Assembly: GCF_963675165.1 (NCBI RefSeq) | Contig: NC_087386.1 | Location: forward strand, 6,851,066-6,915,065 | From: Halichondria panicea | Taxonomy: Eukaryota; Porifera; Demospongiae; Suberitida; Halichondriidae | Direction of reading: 5' to 3' | Length of the DNA: 64,000 nucleotides | Shown: positions 1,451-18,200 of the stretch, in pieces | Layout: every line of letters begins with the position of its first letter | How positions within the stretch are numbered: the stretch's first letter is position 1 | Made by a program: the position numbers and the translations under genes | The notes under the pieces: model-generated | Told to the model about the DNA's origin: nothing | Databases searched by the model: none | What the model saw: only the letters and a program-made list of their open reading frames with translations

Positions 1451-4400
1451 TCAGTGCAGTAGTTCACACACTTGAGTGTGTCCATTCTCACTAGCCAGAT
1501 CATAGGCAGTCCATCCGTCCTGTATAGTGGGTATGTGAGCAGTTAGTGATGAAGGGAAATAAGGGAAACAGTAACATAATTGAAACACTGTTGCCATGGT
1601 TATATGAACCCACGCTGTATATAGATGATCACCACCATGCAGCGTGACTCACATTAGTCTTGATGTGGACGTTAGCCTTGGCCTCCAACAACATTCTAAC
1701 AACTCCACAGTGACCCTTCTGACTGGCCTTGTGCAATGCTGTGACTCCATCCTGTACACATCCAAATAATTATTAACAGACGAGCAGTAAATCTCACCTT
1801 ATATTGAATGTCAACTCTAGCCTTGGCAGCAATCAACAATTCCACTGCCCTCTCATGACCCTCCTGAGCAGCTACCCACAACGCAGTGACTCCACCCTGT
1901 ACAGAGTCAAGATAGTGCAGATCCACTCATTACACAGTATACTGTATAGCGGGTTATTTTCATATGGTGGAAATTTTCGTACATTTCGTATTGTAGAGCA
2001 TCATACGAAAATTAAAACTAACCGCATTACGTTCATGCAACGTCACTATCCAGAGCTGTACGAATATTAAATACGAAATATTTAATTGCAAGGCATGCAG
2101 TTCAAACGAAAATTTGCACCAACGAAAATTACCCGCTAATACAATATCAGTCATACAATATCACATGACTATATCTACACTAATGTCAGGGCAGAGGAGG
2201 TACGACATTTTGTTTACATTGTGATGACGTTTGCTGAGCTGGCAGTTGACCGCGACCTTGCCACGACAAACTCTAGGCTTGTAGAATGCTTGTCACTGAC
2301 TGTATAGCTAGCTCTGTACGTTGCTCAAGGTCTCTATGGCTAGTGTTAGTGTTTCTCCAGCTGAGGTCCTGGTTGGAACTCCAGATATATATGAAGGGTA
2401 CGTGCAGTGCTCTCAACATTAGTATAGCAAGCGTATCTCCTTACTGAATAGGGTTCACTGGGGTTCAGCGACAGAAACAGTTAGATCTAGGTCTAAACTA
2501 TACTACCCTTGAGCCTTAGTCACAGAATAACAGAGTTATTGTGGGGAACACACTACATTGCATAAGCCAATGAAAAGAGAGATCACGAGATGCGTGTCGT
2601 ACCTCGGTACACCAACTACCAGTGCTCTCTACACAAACACGACTAGCTCTGGTGTCTAATGGACCAGGTCAACAGAACATGGGGAGGCTCTGTGGCTAGT
2701 GGCCTCTGAGATGTGTGTACAGCTACTAACACTCACCTCTTTGGGTACATCAACATTGGCCCCAGCATCGATTAGGAGCTCCATACATTTCTGATGACCA
2801 CTGAAACTGGCTGTCCAAAGAGGGGTCTCTCCTGACTGTACATAGGAGGAAAACAATGTAAACAGCATGTTGTGGGAAATGTGTTTGTACAACCTTCTCC
2901 TGAGTGTTGACTGTAGCCTTGGCTGCTAAGAGGACCCTCATTATCTCATCATGTCCATGGTGATTGGCTACATGCAGAGCTGTCTGGTTGTTCTGTTATA
3001 GACCATAAACCATATAAATATATATCTGGACCAGCTAATTGTACACTGTCCACTACTCAGTCCACTCATACACAGAGGTCAAAGTACACACAGTTAACCA
3101 TGGAATCAGCAGAGTACACAAACACCACCATGCAGCGTGACTCACATTAGCCATGATGTGGACGTTAGCCTTGGCCTCCAACAACATTCTAACAACTCCA
3201 CAGTGACCCTCCTGACTGGCCATGTGCAATGCTGTGACTCCATCCTGTACACATCCAAATAATTACTAACAGACAAGCAGTAAATCTCACCTCATTTTGA
3301 ATATTAACTTGAGCCTTGGCAGCAATCAACAATTCCACTGCCCTCTCATGACCCTCCTGAGCAGCTACCCACAACGCAGTGACTCCATCCTGTACAGAGT
3401 CAAGATAGTGCAGATCCACTCATTACACAGTATACTGTATAGCGGGTTATTTTCATATGGTGGAAATTTTCATAATATTATATATATTATTTTGTATTGT
3501 AGAGCATCATACGAAATCTATACGTTCATGCAACGTAACCTGTACGAATATTTAAAATACGAAATATTTAATTGCTGGCAGTTCATTACCGGCTAATACA
3601 ATATCAGTCATACAATATCACATGACTATCTACACTAATGTCAGGCAGAGGAGGTACGACACTTTGTTTAATTGAATTCTATTGTGATGACGTTTGCTGA
3701 GCTGGCAGTTGACCGCGATCGACCTTGCCACGACAAACTCTAGGCTTGTAGAACGCTTGTCACTGACTGTATAGCTAGCTCTGTACGTTGCTCAAGGTCT
3801 CTATGGCTAGTGTTAGTGTTTCTCTAGCTGAGGTCCTGGTTGGAACTACTCCAGATATATATGAAGGGTACGTGCAGTGCTCTCAACATTAGTAGCAAGC
3901 ATATCTCCTTACTGAATAGGGTTCAGCGACAGAAACAGTTAGATCTATAGGTCTAAACTATACTATACCCTTGAGCCTTAGTCGCAGAATAACAGAGTTA
4001 NNNNNNNNNNNNNNNNNNNNNNNNNNNNNNNNNNNNNNNNNNNNNNNNNNNNNNNNNNNNNNNNNNNNNNNNNNNNNNNNNNNNNNNNNNNNNNNNNNNN
4101 NNNNNNNNNNNNNNNNNNNNNNNNNNNNNNNNNNNNNNNNNNNNNNNNNNNNNNNNNNNNNNNNNNNNNNNNNNNNNNNNNNNNNNNNNNNNNNNNNNNN
4201 CAGTAGCAGTAAAGTACGGCCTGGTACCTATTGCATGGTGATAGTGCGCATGCGCTTCAAATTACCCAGAATATGGGTAATCGTACTACGAACGTAAAAC
4301 CTTAGTACCCGTGATTTAGTCCCTTTACTAAGAATATGTTCCGTAATATTTTATCTCCATACTGAGTTCCGTGAAGCTGTATCTATTGCTTAGAAGGCTT

Positions 4401-6786
4401 GAACACTAGTTTGGAGGCTCTTATCTACGTCTACGATGGTCCTATAGCCAGGTTGTCTTCGCAAGAAGCAGTCAAGAGGCACCATACACTTCCCATAGCC
4501 TGTACCGATCTAAGCTAAGATATCCTGACCATACAGCCGTCATAGAGGTGGATGAGAGCCTCTTCTGGCTTCAGACTAGTGTGAAAGCCTTTGGAACAAC
4601 GCAATAGAGAGCTAAGCTGATGTACATAGATAGAAAAAGAAAATAGGGGATTCCCCAGATTCTAGAGAATAAACTATCACATGCTCACTATCACCATACA
4701 ATAAGTACCAGGCCGTAATTGGCCTGGAATCGAGGCTATGTGTACAGCTACTTACACTCACCTCTCTGGGTACATCAACATTGGCCCCAGCATCGATTAG
4801 GAGCTCCATACATTTCTGATGACCATTGAAACTGGCTGTCCAAAGAGGGGTCTCTCCTGACTGTACATAGGAGGAAAACAATGTAAACAGCATGTTGTGG
4901 GAAATTTGTTTGTACAACAAAACCAACCTTGGTCTGAGTGTTGACTGTAGCCTTGGCTGCTAAGAGGACCCTCACTATCTCATCACGTCCATTCCTACTG
5001 GCCCAGTAAAGAGCAGTCCAATCATCATCCTGTAGAGACAATAATTATTATCAACCAACGGACATATTGGCACTGTAGACAGTATTCCCCTCACCTTGTC
5101 TGCCTGGTTGGGATCAGCCCCACACTCCAGTAGCTCCAGAACCACACCCACATTACCCGTCCCACAAGCATCCAGAAATGCCTGGGAGAATATACATTAT
5201 AGTATAACTGGAACATTTGTGGCGAATGAGCCACTTAAACCGATTTGGCGTTTTTTAATTTGGCATGGCTACTACAATGACATTGTGTCCATCAGTGATC
5301 TTCGGTAAAATGCGCCAAATCACCGTATAGCGGGTAATTTTCGTGGGGTAAAATATTTGTTATTTTCGTGGGTAGGCTGACCTCCACGAAATTTTAACGT
5401 AGGCATGGCTTATCGGAACGTAGGAATGCCGTGCAGCCACGAGACTAAACGAAATTTTACTCACTAAAACCACCTTTTCTCGAGTTGAACGAATTTTTTA
5501 CCCCACGAAACTTACCTGCTATACGGTATTCAAACACCGACCAGTTATATACAAACAAAGATGGATTGACAAAAATATTGTCAAACCACACACACAAAAG
5601 TACCAGCACACACAAACGTAATATATTAGCTGACAATGCACATTTGCTACCTCCACCCACTCACTTGTTGCTGTGGACCCAGGTTTCTGAGTGAGGTCAT
5701 CACTTGGTCCACTGATGGTCTCTGTTGAGGTCGGTCATGGACAACAAGAGCCGATGGTTGCTGCATACTAGACAGTGTGTCCTCCCAGGTTAGAGGAGGC
5801 CCTGACTTCAGACGATGAGCAAGCATTTCACGAAGACAGGTACTGTCATCATTAGCAAACTGCTTTCTGATGCTATCTAGCGTGACATCATCGACATTTA
5901 GAGCTTGTCCAATCTCAATCCACCTGTTCCTAGAGTTGTACAGTTCAGTGTGAGCTTGGCTTAAATCATCAAGTGTCAGTCTGTCATCTGTATAATATAA
6001 TTATTGTTGTCTTGAGTGCCATACACACAATATCTGACAATTTACTTAGGTTCTGAGTTGGAGTGGTTCGCTGCCTGTACTAAACTACCTGAAACACATC
6101 CTTCTATTTCATTAGCCACATCGCTGCGTCCTACTGTGATGTGTCTGAGACTCCTGCACAGATCTTCCCAAGTGAGTGAATCCGTTGCCTGGATACAATG
6201 AGCCAACATTTCTCGGAGACAGTCACCATGGTTACTAGATTGTTTCTGATTGATGGCAGTAAGAGTATTGTAATCAACATTGAGAGTCAGCCCAATATTG
6301 AGCCATTCAGTACGAGCCTTGAACAGCTTGCTGCAAACGTCCTTCAGATGGCCACGCAGACTCAGGACTTCATCTGTAACAATAATTATTAAGATACGTA
6401 TAGTTTCCAGGTAGAAACCCTTCCCCTATAACCGTATCATAGATTATACTAACTGACTTACTCATTCGTGGCCCAGGATTGCTCTCAACATCTCCAGCTA
6501 GCAGCAAAAGATGGGCAAGAGAGTGGACCAACCCAACAATGGCAATCATCAGGAGACCAACATTTCTTGTGCGTTTTAGCAAAAGTGATTTGTCTTGAGA
6601 CAGAAACTTGAAAATTAATAATAATAAAAGCAAGCCTCCTTGAACAAGTGTCCCAGTAGTACCCACTGTATCACTGAAGTGTAGAGGCTGGTGTTTTGTC
6701 GAGGGAGCTTTACTGTGTGGTCGTAATCCCCTCCCACCACTGAACAGTCCAATACGAGCTCTCCACAACTCCACAGAGATCCCCAT
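1451..6786 (-). CDS. 2A peptide - DEATH - DEATH - ankyrin repeat protein (NLR-like innate immune receptor candidate)
   Basis: Exons on the minus strand: 6786-6462, 6373-6089, 5987-5665, 5181-5095, 5029-4928, 4860-4762, 3389-3291, 3244-3146, 2992-2894, 2835-2737, 1896-1798, 1751-1653, 1519-1451 (TGA). All phases join. Residues 1-108 hold two hydrophobic stretches (about 50-58 and 77-97), then GDVESNPGP at 98-106, a canonical 2A ribosome-skipping motif (DxExNPGP). Exons 2 and 3 each encode a DEATH-like domain (about 109-203 and 204-311; W..IG..LNVD...L..I, then CLREMLAH). Ten ankyrin exons follow, most exactly 99 nt, one repeat each, all phase 0. In sea urchin, N-terminal 2A sequences of NLR proteins act as alternative signal sequences; 2A-like sequences are also known from sponges. 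An adaptor or receptor in innate immunity is inferred. The 4001-4200 gap lies in the intron after the 4860-4762 exon and could hide further repeats. Confidence 0.85.
1946..2140. repeat. TIR element (MITE), TAGCGGGT family, copy in ankyrin-gene intron
   Basis: Ends TAGCGGGTTATTTTC and GAAAATTACCCGCTA are inverted copies. The same family occurs at 3440-3597, 5324-5527, 26636-26943 and 32664-32878. Flanking TA dinucleotides suggest a TA target as in Tc1/mariner derivatives. No coding capacity. Confidence 0.75.
2336..2397 (+). other. Orphan first-exon-like segment inside the ankyrin-gene intron
   Basis: ATG at 2336 opens a 62-nt frame (MASVSVSPAEVLVGTPDIYE) ending at a donor-like G|GTACGT, preceded by a GC-richer stretch with TGATGACG. 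A second copy at 3803-3867 differs by one in-frame codon. No downstream partner exon is seen on the plus strand. It may be a captured promoter/exon carried by the duplication; coding status is unproven. Confidence 0.3.
3440..3597. repeat. TIR element, TAGCGGGT family, duplicated copy
   Basis: Counterpart of the 1946-2140 element in the paralogous intron. It has the same left end, an internally diverged body and a decayed right end (ATTACCGGCTA). Its position shows that the insertion preceded the block duplication. Confidence 0.65.
4001..4200. other. Assembly gap (N)
   Basis: 200 unresolved bases inside an intron of the ankyrin gene. The paralogous intron (2737 to 1896) holds no exon at the equivalent place, so a hidden coding exon is unlikely but possible. 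Confidence 1.
4213..4738. mobile_element. Inverted-repeat element of about 0.5 kb in ankyrin-gene intron
   Basis: The segment at about 4213-4244 (TACGGCCTGGTACCTATTGC...) is matched in inverted orientation at 4685-4717, roughly 32 bp with a few mismatches. The right edge carries GGCCTGGAATCGAGGCTA, the terminus of the TAGCCTCG family described below. The paralogous intron lacks this insert, so it arrived after the block duplication. The left boundary may lie in the N gap. Confidence 0.6.
5324..5527. repeat. TIR element, TAGCGGGTAATTTTCGTGG family
   Basis: Ends CCGTATAGCGGGTAATTTTC and the inverted CCTGCTATACGG enclose about 200 bp between the first ankyrin exon and the second DEATH exon. Confidence 0.75.
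6469..6495 (-). other. 2A translational recoding (StopGo) motif
   Basis: Codons for GDVESNPGP, residues 98-106 of the ankyrin protein, preceded by the Leu-rich AHLLLLA. All invariant positions of the 2A consensus D-x-E-x-N-P-G-P are present; separation is expected between the final Gly and Pro. The exon donor (GTAAGT) follows only 7 nt after the motif, so the 2A lies at the very end of exon 1. An internal Met (residue 80) would start a 27-residue peptide ending in the 2A, much like the compact signal/2A leaders described in sea urchin. Confidence 0.85.
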
Positions 6787-7303: not shown

Positions 7304-9687
7304 CTATGTAACAGTTCTCTTGTCTCTGAGCTTTCCTCGTGATTGAGTCCTCTGTTTGGCCATCACTGCATTGTAGTACTTCTGGGAACAAGAGAATGAG
7401 AATAATGGACATTCATTCCTACACACATTAATATGCAAACCAACACTGAAGCTTACAAGTACCACTAACGATCTTTACCACACCCTCACACCCCCTCACC
7501 CTGTCCAGCTTGTGAGCCTTGCTCTCCACTCTGAGCAATGGAGGAGGTCCCATCTGAAACACCTCCCTGAGTAGATCATTCCCTGCCAGGTGAGTGTTCA
7601 TGGCTGGTCCTAATAGGTCTCTGAAGGTATCATATTGGACATGTCTGGCCCAACAGTTGAGGGAGACTGATTCCACTCCACTTCTCACTGTGCGCTCAGG
7701 TCCAACTCCACCCTAGTACAGTGTAGTAGGAGGGGGTAGGGAGAGGCTTACTTCACACTTTTTATGAATTAAAAAACAACATTTCCTGGCTTTAAATTTT
7801 GGGTTTTAAAATTGCTAAAATGGTCAATAGTAATAGAGAATGCTTATGTCATGTGATGTACTAGCTGATGGTGTCAGTAACAGTCACTGCATACCTCGAG
7901 TGTGTTGAGGATATCCTTGAATGTAGATCTCTGATGGTTACGTTCCTTGCGTGCCGTGTGTCTGTCACTCTCTGTGGCTAGACTCTGGATAAGCTCATAC
8001 GCTCTGTCACTGTCTCTAGTGTCCAGTAAACTCTCATCCACCTCTCTGACTAACTCAAACAGTAGAGCCACAGCTTGCCCCACTGCCACCCTCACACCAA
8101 GGTGGGAGGTCTTGTCCAGGAGACTGTTCAGAGCAGGCAGCAAACTATACACAACATAGAGGAGGGTCATTGTATGCAGTGCATGTACACTACTAACAAC
8201 AGCTACAACCACTACAGCGGGTGTATTTGGAGGGTATAAATGTTTGCGATTTTCGCTGATTAGCGTGTACTGTGAACATTTATACCCATGAATACTAATA
8301 TCACAAAAAAGCGCTAATCAGTGAAAATCCGCGAAAACCTCTCTAACGGTCATTCCACGAGAGTTTATACTCTGGAAATATACCCGCTATATAGTATACT
8401 ACAGTGAGGTGTTGAAGCTTTAGTTACGTGTGTGCATGTATTGTGGTACAGTACTGACATTGAGACACACAATACAGGGCACATGTATTGTGGTACAGTA
8501 CTGACATTGAGACACACAATACAGGGCACATGTATTGTGGTACAGTACTGACATTGAGACACACAACACAGGGCACATGTATTGTGGTACAGTACTGACA
8601 TTGAGACACACAACACAGGGCACATGTATTGTGGTACAGTACTGACATTGAGACACACAATACAGGGCACATGTATTGTGGTACAGTACTGACATTGAGA
8701 CACACAACACAGGGCACATGTATTGTGGTACAGTACTGACATTGAGACACACAATACAGGGCACATGTATTGTGGTACAGTACTGACATTGAGACACACA
8801 ACACAGGGCACATGTATTGTGGTACAGTACTGACATTGAGACACACAACACAGGGCACATGTATTGTGGTACAGTACTGACATTGAGACACACAACACAG
8901 GGCACATGTATTGTGGTACAGTACTGACATTGAGACACACAATACAGGGCACATGTGAGAGAGATGGAGCAGCTACTGTAATGATGATCACCAATTGAAC
9001 AGAGCTGGTACAGAATGGTCTGGTGCTATGGAGAGCAGTAGTGTCCAGCTCCTCACAGCAGAGGCCACCACCTGGTCCAGTCTACACTTCCTCAGTACCT
9101 CCTCCAGCACACGCATCACACTGGCAACCTCCTACAGTAGCAGGAGGGGTACTGGTAATGTAGCTGAGCTGGTATGCACAGAGCTACAGGCAGCCTATAC
9201 ACAACCTATAGCTATAGACTATATACTAGTATTCTCACCAGTAGATCAGATACTTGTATGAACACCACTACTCCCAGAACCTTCAAACACTGTACAGGGA
9301 AATAATGGTATTACTCCACACAATCAACGGGGGGGGGGGGGTGATACTGACCTCTGACCTCTCGGGTGCTGAGATGGTTGGGTCTTGTGCCAGTTGTGTG
9401 ACTAGTGGTCTTAGTGCAGCAGCTAGGGCAGGTTGGTCCACTCCAAACTGCACTGTCAGCAACATACTGAGCTCCAACAGATCCAGCCTCTCCTGCCCAC
9501 TCACTGTGACCAACAGAAGAGGAATAATACCATTACACATTGCAATGGCCTCACACTAATGTGTTAGTCTGGGGGGGGCTAATGTCAGTCAAAACAGGAA
9601 GAGAGATACACACAATAGAATGGTGAACTAGGAAGTTTGGTAATAGAATAGGGAAATATTCAATGAACTCTAGCACTGTAGAAGCAC

Positions 9688-10694: not shown

Positions 10695-12215
10695 AATCAT
10701 TTTTTTTTTATTTTTTTTTTATTTAAGAAATTTTTATGCAAAACCAAGGTGTGCATAAGGGTAGATCAGGTAGCTCAGATGGCTAGTGTGAAGACTTCCC
10801 CTGGACAACACAAAAACAGAGAAATAAAACAGGAGCTACGGCTAATTATAATAATTATTACACAAAAAGCTACTGAGGTTCGATTTAAATGATGAATCAG
10901 AGGAGCTGTTGATAACTTCTGGTGGTAAAGAATTCCATTTTGGTATTACATCCAGAAAAAAGGAATGTTTGTGGGATGAGGTGCCCACATGTGGTATAAA
11001 GAGTATTTGGCTGTGCGGATGACGGGGGGAAGGGGATGGGTGGGGTGAGAAGACAGAGGGAGGAATACAGGATTTGTTGTTGATGATTTTGAAGCATACT
11101 TTAAGTTTTTGGATATTCCTGCGGTCTTTAAGAGATTTGAGTTGGAGTTTGTTAAGTAGAGAAGTATAGTCAGATTTCCATTCTTTGGTTATGATTTTGC
11201 AGGCAAATGATTGGGTGTTCTCCAGTTTCTTGGTGAGTGTTGATTGATGGGGGTCCCATACTGCGGCGCAGTATTCAAGTTTGGGTAGTACAGTGCTCCT
11301 GTAAATTGTATGCTTTGATTGCTGTGATGCATCTTTTAACTTCCTGTGGAGCAATCCCAGTTGTTGTTTGGATGTCCTCACAGTGTTGGTAATGTGCTCA
11401 GACCAGGACAGATTCTTAGAGATGGTGACGCCGAGGTACTTGAAACATTCCACAATGGGGATTTGCTGGTTTGAAATAGAGAGGGTGAGTGGGATCGCAT
11501 TCATAGATCTTGTGATGGGTAGAACATTGGTTTTTTTGTTGTTTAGAAGGAGACCATGTTGTATAGTCCAGTTGTGAACTGCATTAATATCCTGCTGGAG
11601 CTGAGTGAGATCGTTATCTGAAATTACTGGCCTGTAAAGGAGGATGTCATCAGCATATAGGATTAGCTTGGTTCCGGGGCAGAGCTTTATTTCATTCAGC
11701 GAGTCCATGAATATAATGAACAGTAGGGGTCCCAGAATAGAGCCTTGAGGGACTCCAGACGTTACACGGCACGGTGTTGAGGATGCACCTTCCAGGACGA
11801 CTCTCTGACTTCTGTTTGATAGGTAGTCTGAGAGCCAAGTTAGCAGTGGACCCGAGATACCATGTTTTGAGAGTGACTTAATGATCTGATTGTGGGGGAC
11901 AGAGTCGAATGCTTTACGAATATCAAAGAAAACTGCTCCTACTTGTCTGTTTTTTGATAGTAATTGGTGCCAGTCGTTTGTGACAGTCAGTAGTGCATCC
12001 TGAGTTGAAAATCCTGACCTGAAACCAAATTGGTTGTTGGAGAGAAGTTTGTTTGATGTTAAATGAAGTGATATTTGATTGTGAACAATTCTCTCGAGAA
12101 CCTTCGATATTAAGGACAGTAATGAAATTGGTCTATAGTTAGAGACATCAGATTTATCACCAGCTTTGTGAATTGGGGTCATAACTTGATAATTTTCTTT
12201 CAGTTCTAATAGGAA
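10695..12215 (-). mobile_element. 5'-truncated non-LTR retrotransposon (LINE, Jockey/CR1/L2-like)
   Basis: A 446-codon open frame (12182-10842) encodes most of a reverse transcriptase: GDKSDVSNYRPISLLS (motif 0/1), FFDIRKAFDSVPH (motif A), SGVPQGSILGPLLF (motif B), LYADDILLY (catalytic YADD) and FKYLGV. The frame stays open upstream to about 12215, where homology stops; no endonuclease domain is present, as expected from 5' truncation during target-primed reverse transcription. The 3' end is an A-rich tail, seen as T-runs at about 10695-10725. TTCTAAT occurs at both outer edges and may be a short target duplication. The intact frame suggests a fairly young copy. Clade assignment is tentative. 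Confidence 0.9.
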
Positions 12216-12271
12216 ACAAACGGGCCATGTGGACCTCTAAGCACCACTCCCCCCTTTTGATCAAGTCAACA

Positions 12272-15200
12272 ATGGCTGCAATACTGAGGTCCCTCTCCCT
12301 GGCCTATAGAGCCCCTCCAGTCATTCATGGCTCTGTAAGGTCTACCTCGACACTAGCCAGGTTTAGAGATATCCTAGGAGGCGAGGTCAGTGCCATCAGA
12401 GAAGCGGGCACATTCAAACACGAGCGAGTGATCACGACCCCTCAAGCTGCTCTCATCAAGGTTCAGGAGAGGGACGGATATCTACTCAACTTCTGTGCTA
12501 ACAACTACCTCGGCCTTTCAGTGAGCAACAGTTGGTTTAGATTTGGATACCGTATCAGACACATTAACCATTTCCCCAGGATCCCATTACCCATACATTT
12601 AGTCGTGTATTCAAATTGTAGCCAGAGCATGCCCTGTGTGTCAGTGTGAGATGGTTGTTATATTATCATGATTTTTTATTCCGTGCACAGTCACATCCTG
12701 AGGTGATCAGAGCAGCTCAGAAGGCGTTGGATGATTATGGGGCTGGACTAAGCTCTGTCAGGTTCATCTGTGGTACCCAAGTAAGGACAGTGCACATCAT
12801 GTGGTGGAGTCATGTTATTCCAACAACTACCTCTATATGGCCTATATATCGTATAAGGAGGAACTGTGTCTTATCTGCTGAAAGTGTAAAGTGCAGTGCA
12901 CAGATAGTTGGCATCTCTCTGTGTGTGGTCCGTTGAGAATAACAATTATTATCTAATAAATTGAAACTGTTATTTGGCACATTATTGTACCTAAAGAGAC
13001 GATGCTTTAGACGCTGTCTCATGCCAACCGTGTTTGCATTGCTGCCATTCAACGATCTCCTTTTAACTACTTAAAAAGAAATTTGTAGCAAATATCACAA
13101 TAATTGGTTTTGTCTAGTACTATTTGATGTGTCCGATGATATGATCTTTGTACCCCATAAGACTATTGATGCTTTTGGTCATTGTATTACATACTTTGCT
13201 GATTGGTCGCTCCTTGTACTGACCTGACCTTTGCACTCAGACGGAGGCCACACATGCTCTTGTGTTAGTGTGAGACTATCAGGTTTCACCCACTCATCAT
13301 CACTGTGGGCTAGTGTGGGCTAGTGTGGCTAGTGTGGGCTAGTGTGTGCTAGTGTGTGCTAGGGTGGGCTAGTGTGGCTAGTGTGGGCTAGTGTGTGCTA
13401 GGGTGGGCTAGTGTGGGCTAGTGTGGGCTAGTGTGTGCTAGTGTGGGCTAGGGTGGGCTAGTGTGGGCTAGTGTGGGCTAGTGTGTGGCTAGTGTGGGCT
13501 AGTGTGTGCTAGTGTGGGCTAGTGTGGGCTAGTGTGTGCTAGTGTGGGCTAGTGTGTGCTAGGGTGGGCTAGTGTGGGCTCTATAAGGGCCTGTTATTAA
13601 CAGACAAAGGCCAGGCCGTTGGGAATGGTGGCCTAGACAATAATCCACCATTATGGATTTGTTAGAAGAAGCCCGTTTAGACGATATGCTCAAATCACAA
13701 TTGTTTGGAATGAGCAACAATTTCATAGCCACTGATATTTGGTCAAAAACAGGACAGTAACAACATCATCTGAAAGGCCTCCCTCTAAAGCTTTAAGAAA
13801 AGGATATATTCAGCACCAACGGAACTAAAGCTATGGCCGCTCAAAGAATCTCTATTTAACCCTGGGTCCCCTTCATTTTGAATAGGCTCTACGTACATGT
13901 GTCTAGTGTCTAGTAGTGACTGTATTCCTCCACTGCAGGACCTCCATCTTGAGCTAGAGAGCAAGATTGCTCAGTTTCATGGCCGTGATGACGCTATACT
14001 GTACGCTAGCTGCTTTGACGCCAATGCTGGTCTATTTGAAGCAGCACTAGGTAAAGAAGACGCTCTGTACAGTGACCAGCTCAACCATGCCAGTATCATC
14101 GATGGTGTTAGACTAGCAAAGTGCAGGAAATATCGATACAAGCATCGAGGTACTTTACTCATGCAGTATCACTATAGAGCTGTCCTGTAAAATAATGTTG
14201 TGTTCAGATTTAATCCAGCAAATTTAAGGCTAATAACAGTCTTGCGTTTTCCCAGCTATTTTTGTAGCTATCTTTGATAGTGTGTATTTACTGTATTCCG
14301 TGTTCTATTATTATAGCTATTGTCTGTCCTTTATGTCACTTGTACTTTTAACATTATTTTGATTGTTCCTGTGCAGATGTGAGTGAGTTAGAGTCTCAGT
14401 TGCAAGAATCCAGTGATGCAAGGGTTAAGATGATTGTGTCAGATGGTGTGTTCAGTATGGATGGAAGCATCGCTCCTCTCAAGTAAGATCACTGAAGATA
14501 ACACACTTATCCTCCGGCTCCACCACACAGGGAGATGAGGGTACTTGCTGACAAATATAATGCACTGGTTTTTCTTGACGAATGCCATGCATCCGGTTTC
14601 CTAGGCAACAGCGGAAGGTGCGTGTGGAGCCCATATTATATTTGTGGTGTTAATATTATATTTCCAATGGTTGAAGCCGTGTCTCTGTCTCTACATGTGG
14701 CTCTTGGTGTACCACAGTGATGGTTTCTGTAGACCACAGAGCATGTGCACGTGTGCATTGATACAGCTACAGCCTGGAGTCTTAGCAACCACACTGTGTA
14801 ACTATATACCAATATCATGACTATATATGTACTGTGTACAGAATGGTTCTCATGCTTCACTGAGTAGCGAGGTGTTTCCTAGAGTAGCGAGGTGTGGGAG
14901 CAATGATTGTTTAATTGTCAATAAATACTGCATTTGTTTTTGTTTGTTTGTTGTCTGTCCCAGCTTTAATTACATCAACTATAAATATTTACACTAGCTG
15001 CCTTAAATACTTGTAGAAATCAGTCTCCCCCACCCACACACCTTCCCTGGGGCAGTGTGGTCATGTATCTGGCCCACCCTTCCCTGGGGCAGTGTGTGTA
15101 TCTGGCCCACCCTTCCCTGGGGCAGTGTGGTCATGTATCTGGCCCACCCTTCCCTGGGGCAGTGTGTGTACCCACCCACACACCTTCCCTGGGGCAGTGT

Positions 15201-18200
15201 GGTCATGTATCTGGCCCACCCTTCCCTGGGGCAGTGTGTGTATCTGGCCCACCCTTCCCTGGGGCAGTGTGGTCATGTATCTGGCCCACCCTTCCCTGGG
15301 GCAGTGTGTGTACCCACCCACACACCTTCCCTGGGGCAGTGTGTGTATCTGGCCCACCCTTCCCTGGGGCAGTGTGGTCATGTATCTGGCCCACCCTTCC
15401 CTGGGGCAGTGTGTGTATCTGGCCCACCCTTCCCTGGGGTAGTGTGTGTACCCACCCACACACCTTCCCTGGGGCAGTGTGTGTATCTGGCCCACCCTTC
15501 CCTGGGGCAGTGTGTGTACCCACCCACACACCTTCCCTCATGTATCTGGCCCACCCTTCCCTGGGGCAGTGTGTGTACCCACCCACACACCTTCCCTGGG
15601 GCAGTGTGGTCATGTATCTGGCCCACCCTTCCCTGGGGCAGTGTGTGTACCCACCCACACACCTTCCCTGAGGCAGTGTGGTCATGTATCTGGCCCACCC
15701 TTCCCTGGGGTAGTGTGTGTACCCACCCACACACCTTCCCTGGGGCAGTGTGGTCATGTATCTGGCCCACCCTTCCCTGGGGCAGTGTGTGTACCCACCC
15801 ACACACCTTCCCTGGGGCAGTGTGTGTATCTGGCCCACCCTTCCCTGGGGCAGTGTGTGTACCCACCCACACACCTTCCCTGGGGCAGTGTGTGTACCCA
15901 CCCACACACCTTCCCTGGGGCAGTGTATGTACCCACCCACACGCCTTCCCTGGGGCAGTGTGTGTATCTGGCCCACCCTTCCCTGGGGCAGTGTGTGTAC
16001 CCACCCACACACCTTCCTGGTGTGTATCTGGCCCACCCTTCCCTGGGGCAGTGTGGTCATGTTCATGTGTCAATGGCTGTGCTTTCTCCTCTGATTAGTA
16101 TCTGGTTGTAGAGTGGACATCCTGTAACCTACTACTGTGGGTGGCAAACACTCTCTTTGTTGTGTACACATGTTGCTCCAAGAGACAGTTTACACAAGGC
16201 TACTGTGTGGTAGATTTGCCTATATTCCCTGTACTAGTCTACCATATATCGACCTCTCCCTCCCTCCATGCAGGGGCACAGAGGAGCAGTATGGTATGTC
16301 TGGTAGTGTGGACATCATCAACTCTACCCTGGGCAAGGCTCTAGGAGGAGCTGCCGGGGGATACACTGTAGGCCCTCTAGAGCTCACCACACTACTCAGA
16401 CAAAGGTCACGACCTTATCTCTTCTCCAACAGTCTCCCCCCACCAGTAGTGGCCGGGGCTATCAAGGTGTGCTAGTGTGTGTGGTGTGCTAGTGTGTAGT
16501 GGCCGGGGCTATCAAGGTGTGCTAGTGTGTGTGGTGTGCTAGTGTGTGTGGTGTGTGTGCCATATGATTGTAGAATGTTCCACACACACACACACCACAC
16601 ACACACCACACACTAGCACATAGTAATGTGTTTGTTCACATTTGCCTCATTTTAGAGCTTTGAAGTCGTGTAATTTGCCTAATTTTTCCTAATGCCCCAC
16701 TAATCACTGTCAACAAACTCTGGTCCCTATATACCAGCCACAGGGTGTTTCTCATTCCTGCCAGTACTCAACTATCGCCATGGTAGCATCTCCTGAGGCT
16801 ATTCTCCAAGTTCTGTGTAGTGATATTATGTTGTCATGAACCTACCCTAGGCCTAGCGGTATTAGAGAATTGCCCAACAGCAAAACCACAGTTATAATTA
16901 TGACCAATAAGAGTTTCCGTGTACTTAACAGGAGTATGATGTATTCAGAAATTACTAGAAAAGCCCCCCAAGAAGAAATCGAACCCACGCCTTATCTATC
17001 ATCTAATCTACTAAGCTACCCCACCCTAACCACTAAGCCACACCTATTCTGTGCTTATTGTGTGTGTGTGGGTGTAGTATGTGCTTCTAGTGGATGGTTG
17101 GTGTGTGCTTATAGTGGTGTGTGTGGTGTGGGCGTTACCCTCCCCTACTCTAGGTATTTGATTTGCTGATGGGAGGTACAGGACAAGAGTTGATGAACAA
17201 GCTACAAGAGAATACAACAAGGTTCAGACAGAGGATGACCGAGGCAGGCTTCACTCTCAAGGTACCCTAGCTACATTTTAGATCATGTTTGCCATAAATA
17301 CTGCAATCTGATAGGCTAAAGGAAATGTTCTATCCAACTTAGAAAATCGTGTACTTCACTTAGAAAATCATGTAGATAAGAACATTCAAATCTGATTGGC
17401 TAGATACTCAAGATCTAGACACTGTTTAGGAAGTTTTGGGCTTCTAAATCATGTAGAAACTTCCTAAACAGTGTCTAACTATTATACAGCAAGATTTTCC
17501 TGGCTGGTTGAACTTGTTCATGATGGGAAAATAATCATGAGAATGACAATAATGTTGTACTGTTGTGTCTGCTGAGATAATTGGTTTAAAATATGTTTGA
17601 AATAATCATGTACAATTCTAACTCCCAGCTTAGTGTCTGCCAGTCCATAGCAACAGTCCCAGCCCATAGCAACAGTGTATGTATTGACCCATGCAGGGGG
17701 AAGGACATCCCATCACTCCAGTCATGTTGGGAGATGCTAGACTAGCTGCTGAGTTTGCTGATGACATGCTCAAACAAGGAATATACGTGATTGGGTTCTC
17801 CTTCCCTGTAGTGCCTCAAGGTGAGCAAAGGCATTGACTCTCTACACACATAACCATCTAGAAGGCTCCTTTACACAGCTCATTATATATTACATGCCTC
17901 ATTACTAGCCACTCTATCTTCATCAGCTGATAGTCTCTGTTTTGTCTTCACTCTATTATACTGTGTTAATGGCCATTATTGAGCCACTCTCTTGGAACCC
18001 AACCCTGTATTCATGTTTCTATTGACCACCCATTTCCTTGACTAATTGTCTACTTCTTGTGTAGACTGGAGCCCCCTATATATACTGTATAGGTCACACC
18101 ACTCTTGTGTAGACTGGAGCCCCCTATATATACTGTATAGGCCACACCACTCTTGTGTAGACTGGAGCCCCCTATATATACTGTATAGGCCACACCACTC

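Follow-up and report, generated by a model that had tools for sequence, protein, structure and literature searches.

What a 2A (StopGo) peptide does at the end of the first exon of a DEATH-DEATH-ankyrin gene is the question raised by the minus strand of the window, as the whole stretch of 64,000 nucleotides analysed here from the genome of the sponge Halichondria panicea is called. The predicted gene with its N-terminal 2A leader is confirmed to exist as a reading of the sequence, and all of its features lie on that strand. Exon 1 (6462..6786, 325 nt) starts with an ATG and encodes a leader of 106 residues with a terminal 2A. The leader opens with a block that is conserved in alignments (residues 1-20, MGISVELWRARIGLFSGGRG; 6727..6786) and closes with the core GDVESNPGP (residues 98-106; 6469..6495), in which the skip is predicted between G105 and P106; directly before the core, the Kyte-Doolittle scan finds a hydrophobic, TM-like segment at about residues 78-96 (6499..6555). 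After the core the exon adds only Arg-Met and one base, ending in phase 1 at the donor GTAAGT. Exon 2 (6089..6373, 285 nt, phase 1 on both sides) encodes the first DEATH-type domain, and exon 3 (5650..5987), whose start is at 5987 and whose 3' end is only approximate, encodes the second. Introns 1 (6374..6461, 88 nt, GTAAGT..ACAG) and 2 (5988..6088, 101 nt, GTAGTT..ACAG) are inferred from the sequence. The ankyrin-repeat exons (1454..5196) hold nine detected repeats and are interrupted by a run of 200 N at 4001-4200.

When exons 1, 2 and 3 are joined, with the joints read from the sequence, the frame stays open and both introns are GT..AG introns of phase 1. The first-pass annotation had described a cellular gene in which a canonical, in-frame N-terminal 2A is spliced to two DEATH-type domains and ankyrin repeats, in the order 2A-DEATH-DEATH-ANK; the joined exons bear out the composition, and their open frame the order. 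That exon 1 is joined to the DEATH exons in the mRNA can be held with high confidence. A RasGEF-like gene is read on the plus strand at the start of the window, and hence the ankyrin gene probably ends within the window. Elsewhere in the window, the reverse transcriptase ORF of another non-LTR element is seen by eye on the minus strand at 10842-12236, with no 2A in view, and minisatellite-type tandem repeats, also by eye, at 8420-8960 and 15000-16100, the latter within an apparent glycine C-acetyltransferase-type gene.

The window DEATH-type domain has the six helices of a death fold. Against PF00531 it scores 16.6 bits, under the curated cut-off of 22.6, and seven of ten relatives match that family at E up to 0.1 (best 2.1e-4). 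The second DEATH domain aligns to the first with 29% identity (37.5 and 38.8% in the tblastn cross-matches) and its exon has no Pfam match of its own. The window DEATH domain, searched against PDB sequences, matched just two entries, both of them engineered proteins, within residues 55-85 (E 7e-4 and 0.047). The ankyrin repeats lie in tandem, and three of them, joined, match PF00023 (Ank) at E 2.3e-26. No NACHT domain is found near the window gene (C10:6.85 Mb) among the matches listed, which number at least 102 (102 of 265 candidates scored).

The core itself is in frame and matches (D/G/C/N)(V/I)ExNPGP. According to the available parts of PMC12846837, the 2A nascent chain acts within the ribosome exit tunnel, L-rich contexts pair with D at position 12 and S at position 15, and an example of L-rich motif 6 is active in rabbit reticulocyte lysate. 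The hexapeptide LLLLAG upstream of the window core fits, in a comparison by eye, the LLLLSG-like class described there, and LLLLAG-DVESNPGP resembles L-rich motifs 2 and 6 (D at position 12, S at position 15). The window 2A is very likely active in skipping.

A genome search with the window leader gave 18 full-length matches (E <1e-48, window included), 77-100% identical, besides weaker, degraded or partial ones. Twenty loci of the family were examined at 10 kb, 19 with a canonical 2A and one broken copy (L028). A DEATH match follows the leader on the same strand in all 20; it starts about 45-135 nt past the leader in 18 and about 0.9 kb past it in L027 and L021, the distant DEATH exon of L021 being broken. 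Both DEATH types come immediately past the leader in the window gene, L025 and L026, and an additional DEATH-type match lies 2 to 9 kb further on in L013, L017 and L027. A search with the second DEATH exon likewise leads back to leader-bearing loci, where all of its 13 best matches (E <1e-30, window included) fall. Ankyrin repeats occur within 10 kb on the same strand in 17 of the 20, four of these with a single repeat, and on the opposite strand in none. The 18 aligned leaders are 105 or 106 residues long and all carry GD[VI]ESNPGP; one has an in-frame stop (L014) and the other 17 are open. Their pooled dN/dS is 0.48, and 0.41 for the last 18 codons, the sequences being related and the pairs non-independent. 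Leader frames are broken in at least three of the 20 loci (L014, L024, L028), of which L014 and L024 retain the canonical 2A. The donor is in phase 1 in 19/19 canonical family loci. The first-pass annotation had also suggested that the exon end at the 2A could be shuffled, and this is upheld beyond the family: by a crude rule that takes the first donor-like GT, phase 1 was found in 36/36 loci where an intron was taken to follow the 2A, out of 49 canonical-2A loci.

The pattern GDVExNPGP occurs at 91 sites in the 131.5-Mb genome against 0 for the reversed control, and D[VI]ExNPGP at 116 against 0 for the reversed pattern, which rules out a chance motif. The 115 sites of known position were used to count neighbours, and a death-fold exon was counted if it lay no more than 1.5 kb downstream of the 2A on the same strand. 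There were 70 such sites, 58 with a C14-type DEATH exon and 12 with a CARD-like exon, at a median gap of 117 nt (67 within 300 nt). When the sites were displaced by 5-50 kb, the count averaged 4.8 of 115 and never exceeded 12 in 200 trials. A DEATH or CARD-like exon upstream of the 2A or on the opposite strand was seen at 0/115. Further searches added window-type DEATH (16 sites), Death-like (8) and PF00531 (3) neighbours, for 97/115; seven of the remainder match a 2A-PHD retrotransposon ORF, and 11 have another assignment or none. The converse does not hold, as many DEATH matches, for example those of the C12 array at 1.0-2.1 Mb, have no 2A site nearby. The paralog family together with this association rules out a single odd gene. 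The scope of the first-pass annotation, which spoke of one gene, is thus right for this gene and too narrow as a limit, since DEATH-ANK, DEATH-NACHT and CARD-type genes are concerned genome-wide. Judged from these neighbourhoods, one message may yield two separate proteins at around a hundred genes of the death-domain type.

Most of the remaining 2A sites do not belong to copies of the window gene. The largest array, on C14, holds 41 of the 115; for example, L029 and L030 show the order 2A, DEATH exon, NACHT (a piece of L029 matches PF05729 at E 5e-21), and L047 has a DEATH domain with no NACHT within its 3.1 kb. Similarly, L031 (C15) and L050 (C13) have a 2A, two DEATH-type ORFs and a NACHT, that of L050 recognised only by reading of its Walker motif. 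The next exon is CARD-like at 10 of the 11 C2 sites and at two sites at C1:10.2-10.3 Mb, and a search of PDB sequences with the CARD-like domain gave nothing below E 0.08. A NACHT lies about 1.8 kb past C1:10207555 and 2.3 kb past the DEATH site C6:1051713. DEATH comes next at 2A sites on C11, C4, C12, C3 and elsewhere.

Several loci are arranged differently. In L032, L033, L038 and L041 (C10, C12, C6) the first half of a Death-like domain is in the 2A exon itself, unlike the families with a phase-1 end. L034 (C7 4.93 Mb) has a 2A leader, an in-frame CARD-like stretch and an ORF of an astacin-type metalloprotease (PF01400, E 2.4e-7), and in L037 (C17 4.085 Mb) the frame continues past the 2A into a Ser/Pro-rich region and a coiled coil resembling bZIP, the latter below the cut-off. 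Several hydrophobic segments, seen by eye, precede the 2A in L039 and L040 (C16 2.73-2.74 Mb) and L045 (C6 3.06 Mb), each one long open frame of which 490-910 residues were translated, with no Pfam match over the cut-off; as predicted genes, these are a different kind of cellular 2A gene. A PHD-type finger follows the 2A in ORFs of non-LTR type at C1:10392692, C2:5497498, C2:5771131, C2:6752716, C3:1931384, C6:6716505 and C11:6417779, the PHD/retrotransposon matches being weak at C6:6716505 and C2:5771131.

Among public predicted proteins, 30 relatives of the window leader were found, and D[VI]ExNPGP is kept in 17 of the 18 viewed; P0017 ends differently. The core is kept in all 13 distant relatives viewed, which are 30-59% identical and differ in the middle. 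An alignment of 12 sequences (the window leader, P0006 and ten of these 13) leaves invariant M1 and G2, E6-F15 (ELWRARIGLF) and one Arg, and at the C-terminal end LL, AGD, E and NPGP. Mean pairwise identity in this set is 0.87 over residues 1-20, 0.26 in the middle, which is 52-114 residues long, and 0.78 over the last 19. The leaders were assigned to no family in Pfam or NCBIfam. The motif WRxRIGL[FY] is present at 29 genome sites against one for the control, and by position these accompany DEATH-ANK, DEATH and DEATH-NACHT genes; the variant WRVRTGL is found in the C1 CARD gene L002. A canonical 2A lies close downstream at 24 of the 29. At the other five the leader stops or shifts frame and the 2A is altered or out of frame; L024 (C5:3080 kb), one of the 24, is likewise frame-shifted. 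Loss of the 2A therefore goes with loss of the leader frame, and broken leaders may keep the motif. ELWRARIGLF was seen in none of the C14 leaders read, and hence it is dispensable for 2A-DEATH genes in general. Of the 22 leaders scored in the Kyte-Doolittle scan, 19 have a hydrophobic segment whose end lies 6-17 residues from the C-terminus of the 2A (P0018, L032 and L034 have none near the 2A). The window leader has a second hydrophobic stretch at residues 46-62.

The reading that we favour, and regard as probable, is that exon 1 is the StopGo leader of a cellular DEATH-DEATH-ankyrin gene and is released as a separate, probably tail-anchored peptide. Its basis is the sequence, the exon phase, the retention across the family and the association with death-fold genes. 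The 106-residue leader would be made first, its 2A tail in the exit tunnel would block the Gly-Pro bond, and the leader would be released; translation would then restart at the Pro, and the DEATH-DEATH-ANK protein would emerge in the cytosol as a second product. When the leader is let go, its hydrophobic segment would still be within the ribosome, about ten residues from the new C-terminus. From this geometry, membrane insertion would come only afterwards, as a tail anchor, and the ELWRARIGLF end would be cytosolic, beside the site of synthesis of the DEATH-ANK protein. One mRNA would thus yield, in a fixed ratio, a peptide for the membrane and a death-fold protein that is soluble; in the minority of cases where skipping fails, the chain would be tethered to the membrane. 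Two features bear on the anchor: hydrophobic residues before the core belong to the L-rich 2A class, so that the 'tail anchor' may be a by-product, and the stretch at residues 46-62 could meet SRP before the leader is released. That the leader is a conserved working product, a tail-anchored membrane peptide made by skipping, is a tentative extension, suggested by its conserved ends. Equally tentative is the part of that idea in which the cytosolic end is common to several receptor types, as ELWRARIGLF in DEATH-ANK, WRARIGLY in DEATH-NACHT and WRVRTGL in a CARD gene.

The alternative that survives best, though rather unlikely, is dual targeting as in sea urchin NLRs, in which skipping is partial and the leader, which has no separate job, serves as a signal sequence that takes unskipped chains to the secretory pathway or membrane. 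Such targeting is described for SpNLR2A6 in mammalian and plant cells in the available text of PMC4981915, the window leader has two hydrophobic stretches, and the transmembrane segments noted in sponge NLRs in the part of PMC12909245 that was available could be explained by such leaders. However, leaders of the ELWRARIGLF type span 89 to about 153 residues, against the 26 given in that portion of PMC4981915, and the conserved block of 20 residues lies far from the hydrophobic end and would be needless for a mere signal sequence. The first-pass annotation had proposed a cleaved leader plus a cytosolic receptor, or a secretory or membrane form where skipping fails. Its N-terminal 2A stands; its secretory leader is less supported, given the long leaders, the conserved N-terminal block and, in most of them, a hydrophobic segment about ten residues from the C-terminus. 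A signal peptide accounts for this predicted geometry no better than a released, tail-anchored peptide does.

It is improbable that skipping has been lost, leaving a single protein with an N-terminal membrane anchor whose NPGP is kept for another reason or through recent duplication and gene conversion. The paralogs are indeed close (the 17 best others share 77-90% identity with the window leader) and homogenisation can act on arrays, but the core is also kept in the 30-59% identical relatives with a differing middle and in unlike leader families.

Less probable still is that exon 1 is the remnant of a 2A-bearing non-LTR retrotransposon which adjoins DEATH exons by chance. Elements of this kind are present in the genome, as the seven sites of 115 with a 2A-PHD-type ORF attest, but none of the 13 matches to that ORF is a window-family leader, and the phase-1 donor in 19/19, the DEATH match following in 20/20 and a dN/dS below 1 speak against a remnant. 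For the window copy the idea is rejected, as DEATH exons follow and its site is absent from the 13 matches. An ancient retrotransposon capture may be the origin of the leader. Just as improbable is that exon 1 stands alone as a short gene, or serves as an alternative first exon, with the main DEATH-ANK transcript starting elsewhere: if intron 1 were retained, the frame would run into a stop after the first base of exon 2 (ORF 6855-6370) and encode only the leader and a short tail, but donor and phase are conserved across the family, and the DEATH frame of exon 2, by reading, has no Met before about the 55th residue.

The favoured StopGo leader can be set beside several known systems. APE-type non-LTR retrotransposons reportedly carry 2A sequences, and like them the window gene has a 2A near the N-terminus in an animal genome, where seven sites of that type occur; unlike them, with their PHD-type finger and retrotransposon ORF downstream, it has a death-fold domain. 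The nearest relative in design is the N-terminal 2A of Strongylocentrotus purpuratus NLRs (SpNLR2A), which can double as a signal sequence (Roulston et al. 2016; PMC4981915); the sections available give 85/241 NLRs in the introduction and, in the results, a leader of 26 residues for 14/87 database entries. Both systems place a cellular N-terminal 2A before DEATH-type receptors in an expanded gene family. Unlike the NACHT-type NLRs with 26 residues in that account, the window leader has 106 residues and its gene is DEATH-DEATH-ANK, with no NACHT listed nearby, and the sponge genome goes further with 2A before DEATH-NACHT and CARD-type genes too. As the sea urchin N-terminal 2A was already known, the present case is a variant with longer, conserved leaders on several death-fold families. 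The L-rich StopGo/2A classes share the DVESNPGP core and LLLLAG context, whereas their sequences, in the portion of PMC12846837 that was available, come from RNA viruses and the present one from a cellular gene; StopGo in cellular genes is called very rare there.

In another sponge, Dysidea avara, many NACHT genes with DEATH/CARD and transmembrane segments in NLRs are described in the available part of PMC12909245, and the present genome is similar in that many NACHT genes stand alongside DEATH/CARD. The compactness of the present genome and its arrays of DEATH, CARD and NACHT genes would be in keeping with a demosponge. The main text of the D. avara paper contains none of the terms '2A peptide', 'ribosome skipping', 'NPGP' and 'ankyrin'. 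No earlier description of a 2A in DEATH-ankyrin genes or in sponges was found in the open-access literature searched. As far as that literature shows, the DEATH-ankyrin class, the CARD class, the long motif-bearing leader and the scale within one genome are new.

With 97 of 115 located 2A sites before death-fold exons, this sponge would hold a large natural use of cellular StopGo beside that of the sea urchin. The finding raises the questions of what a skip at the N-terminus is needed for in receptors of the immune type, whether tail-anchored proteins can arise by skipping, and whether 2A leaders account for part of the 'transmembrane NLRs' reported in sponges. Because the leader carries a conserved motif, the released peptide can itself be put to the test. 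If the tentative extension is true and the leader is a working product, each mRNA would provide a membrane dock and a soluble death-fold receptor in equal numbers, and first-exon shuffling would have spread this device across the innate-immune repertoire of an animal lineage that branched early.
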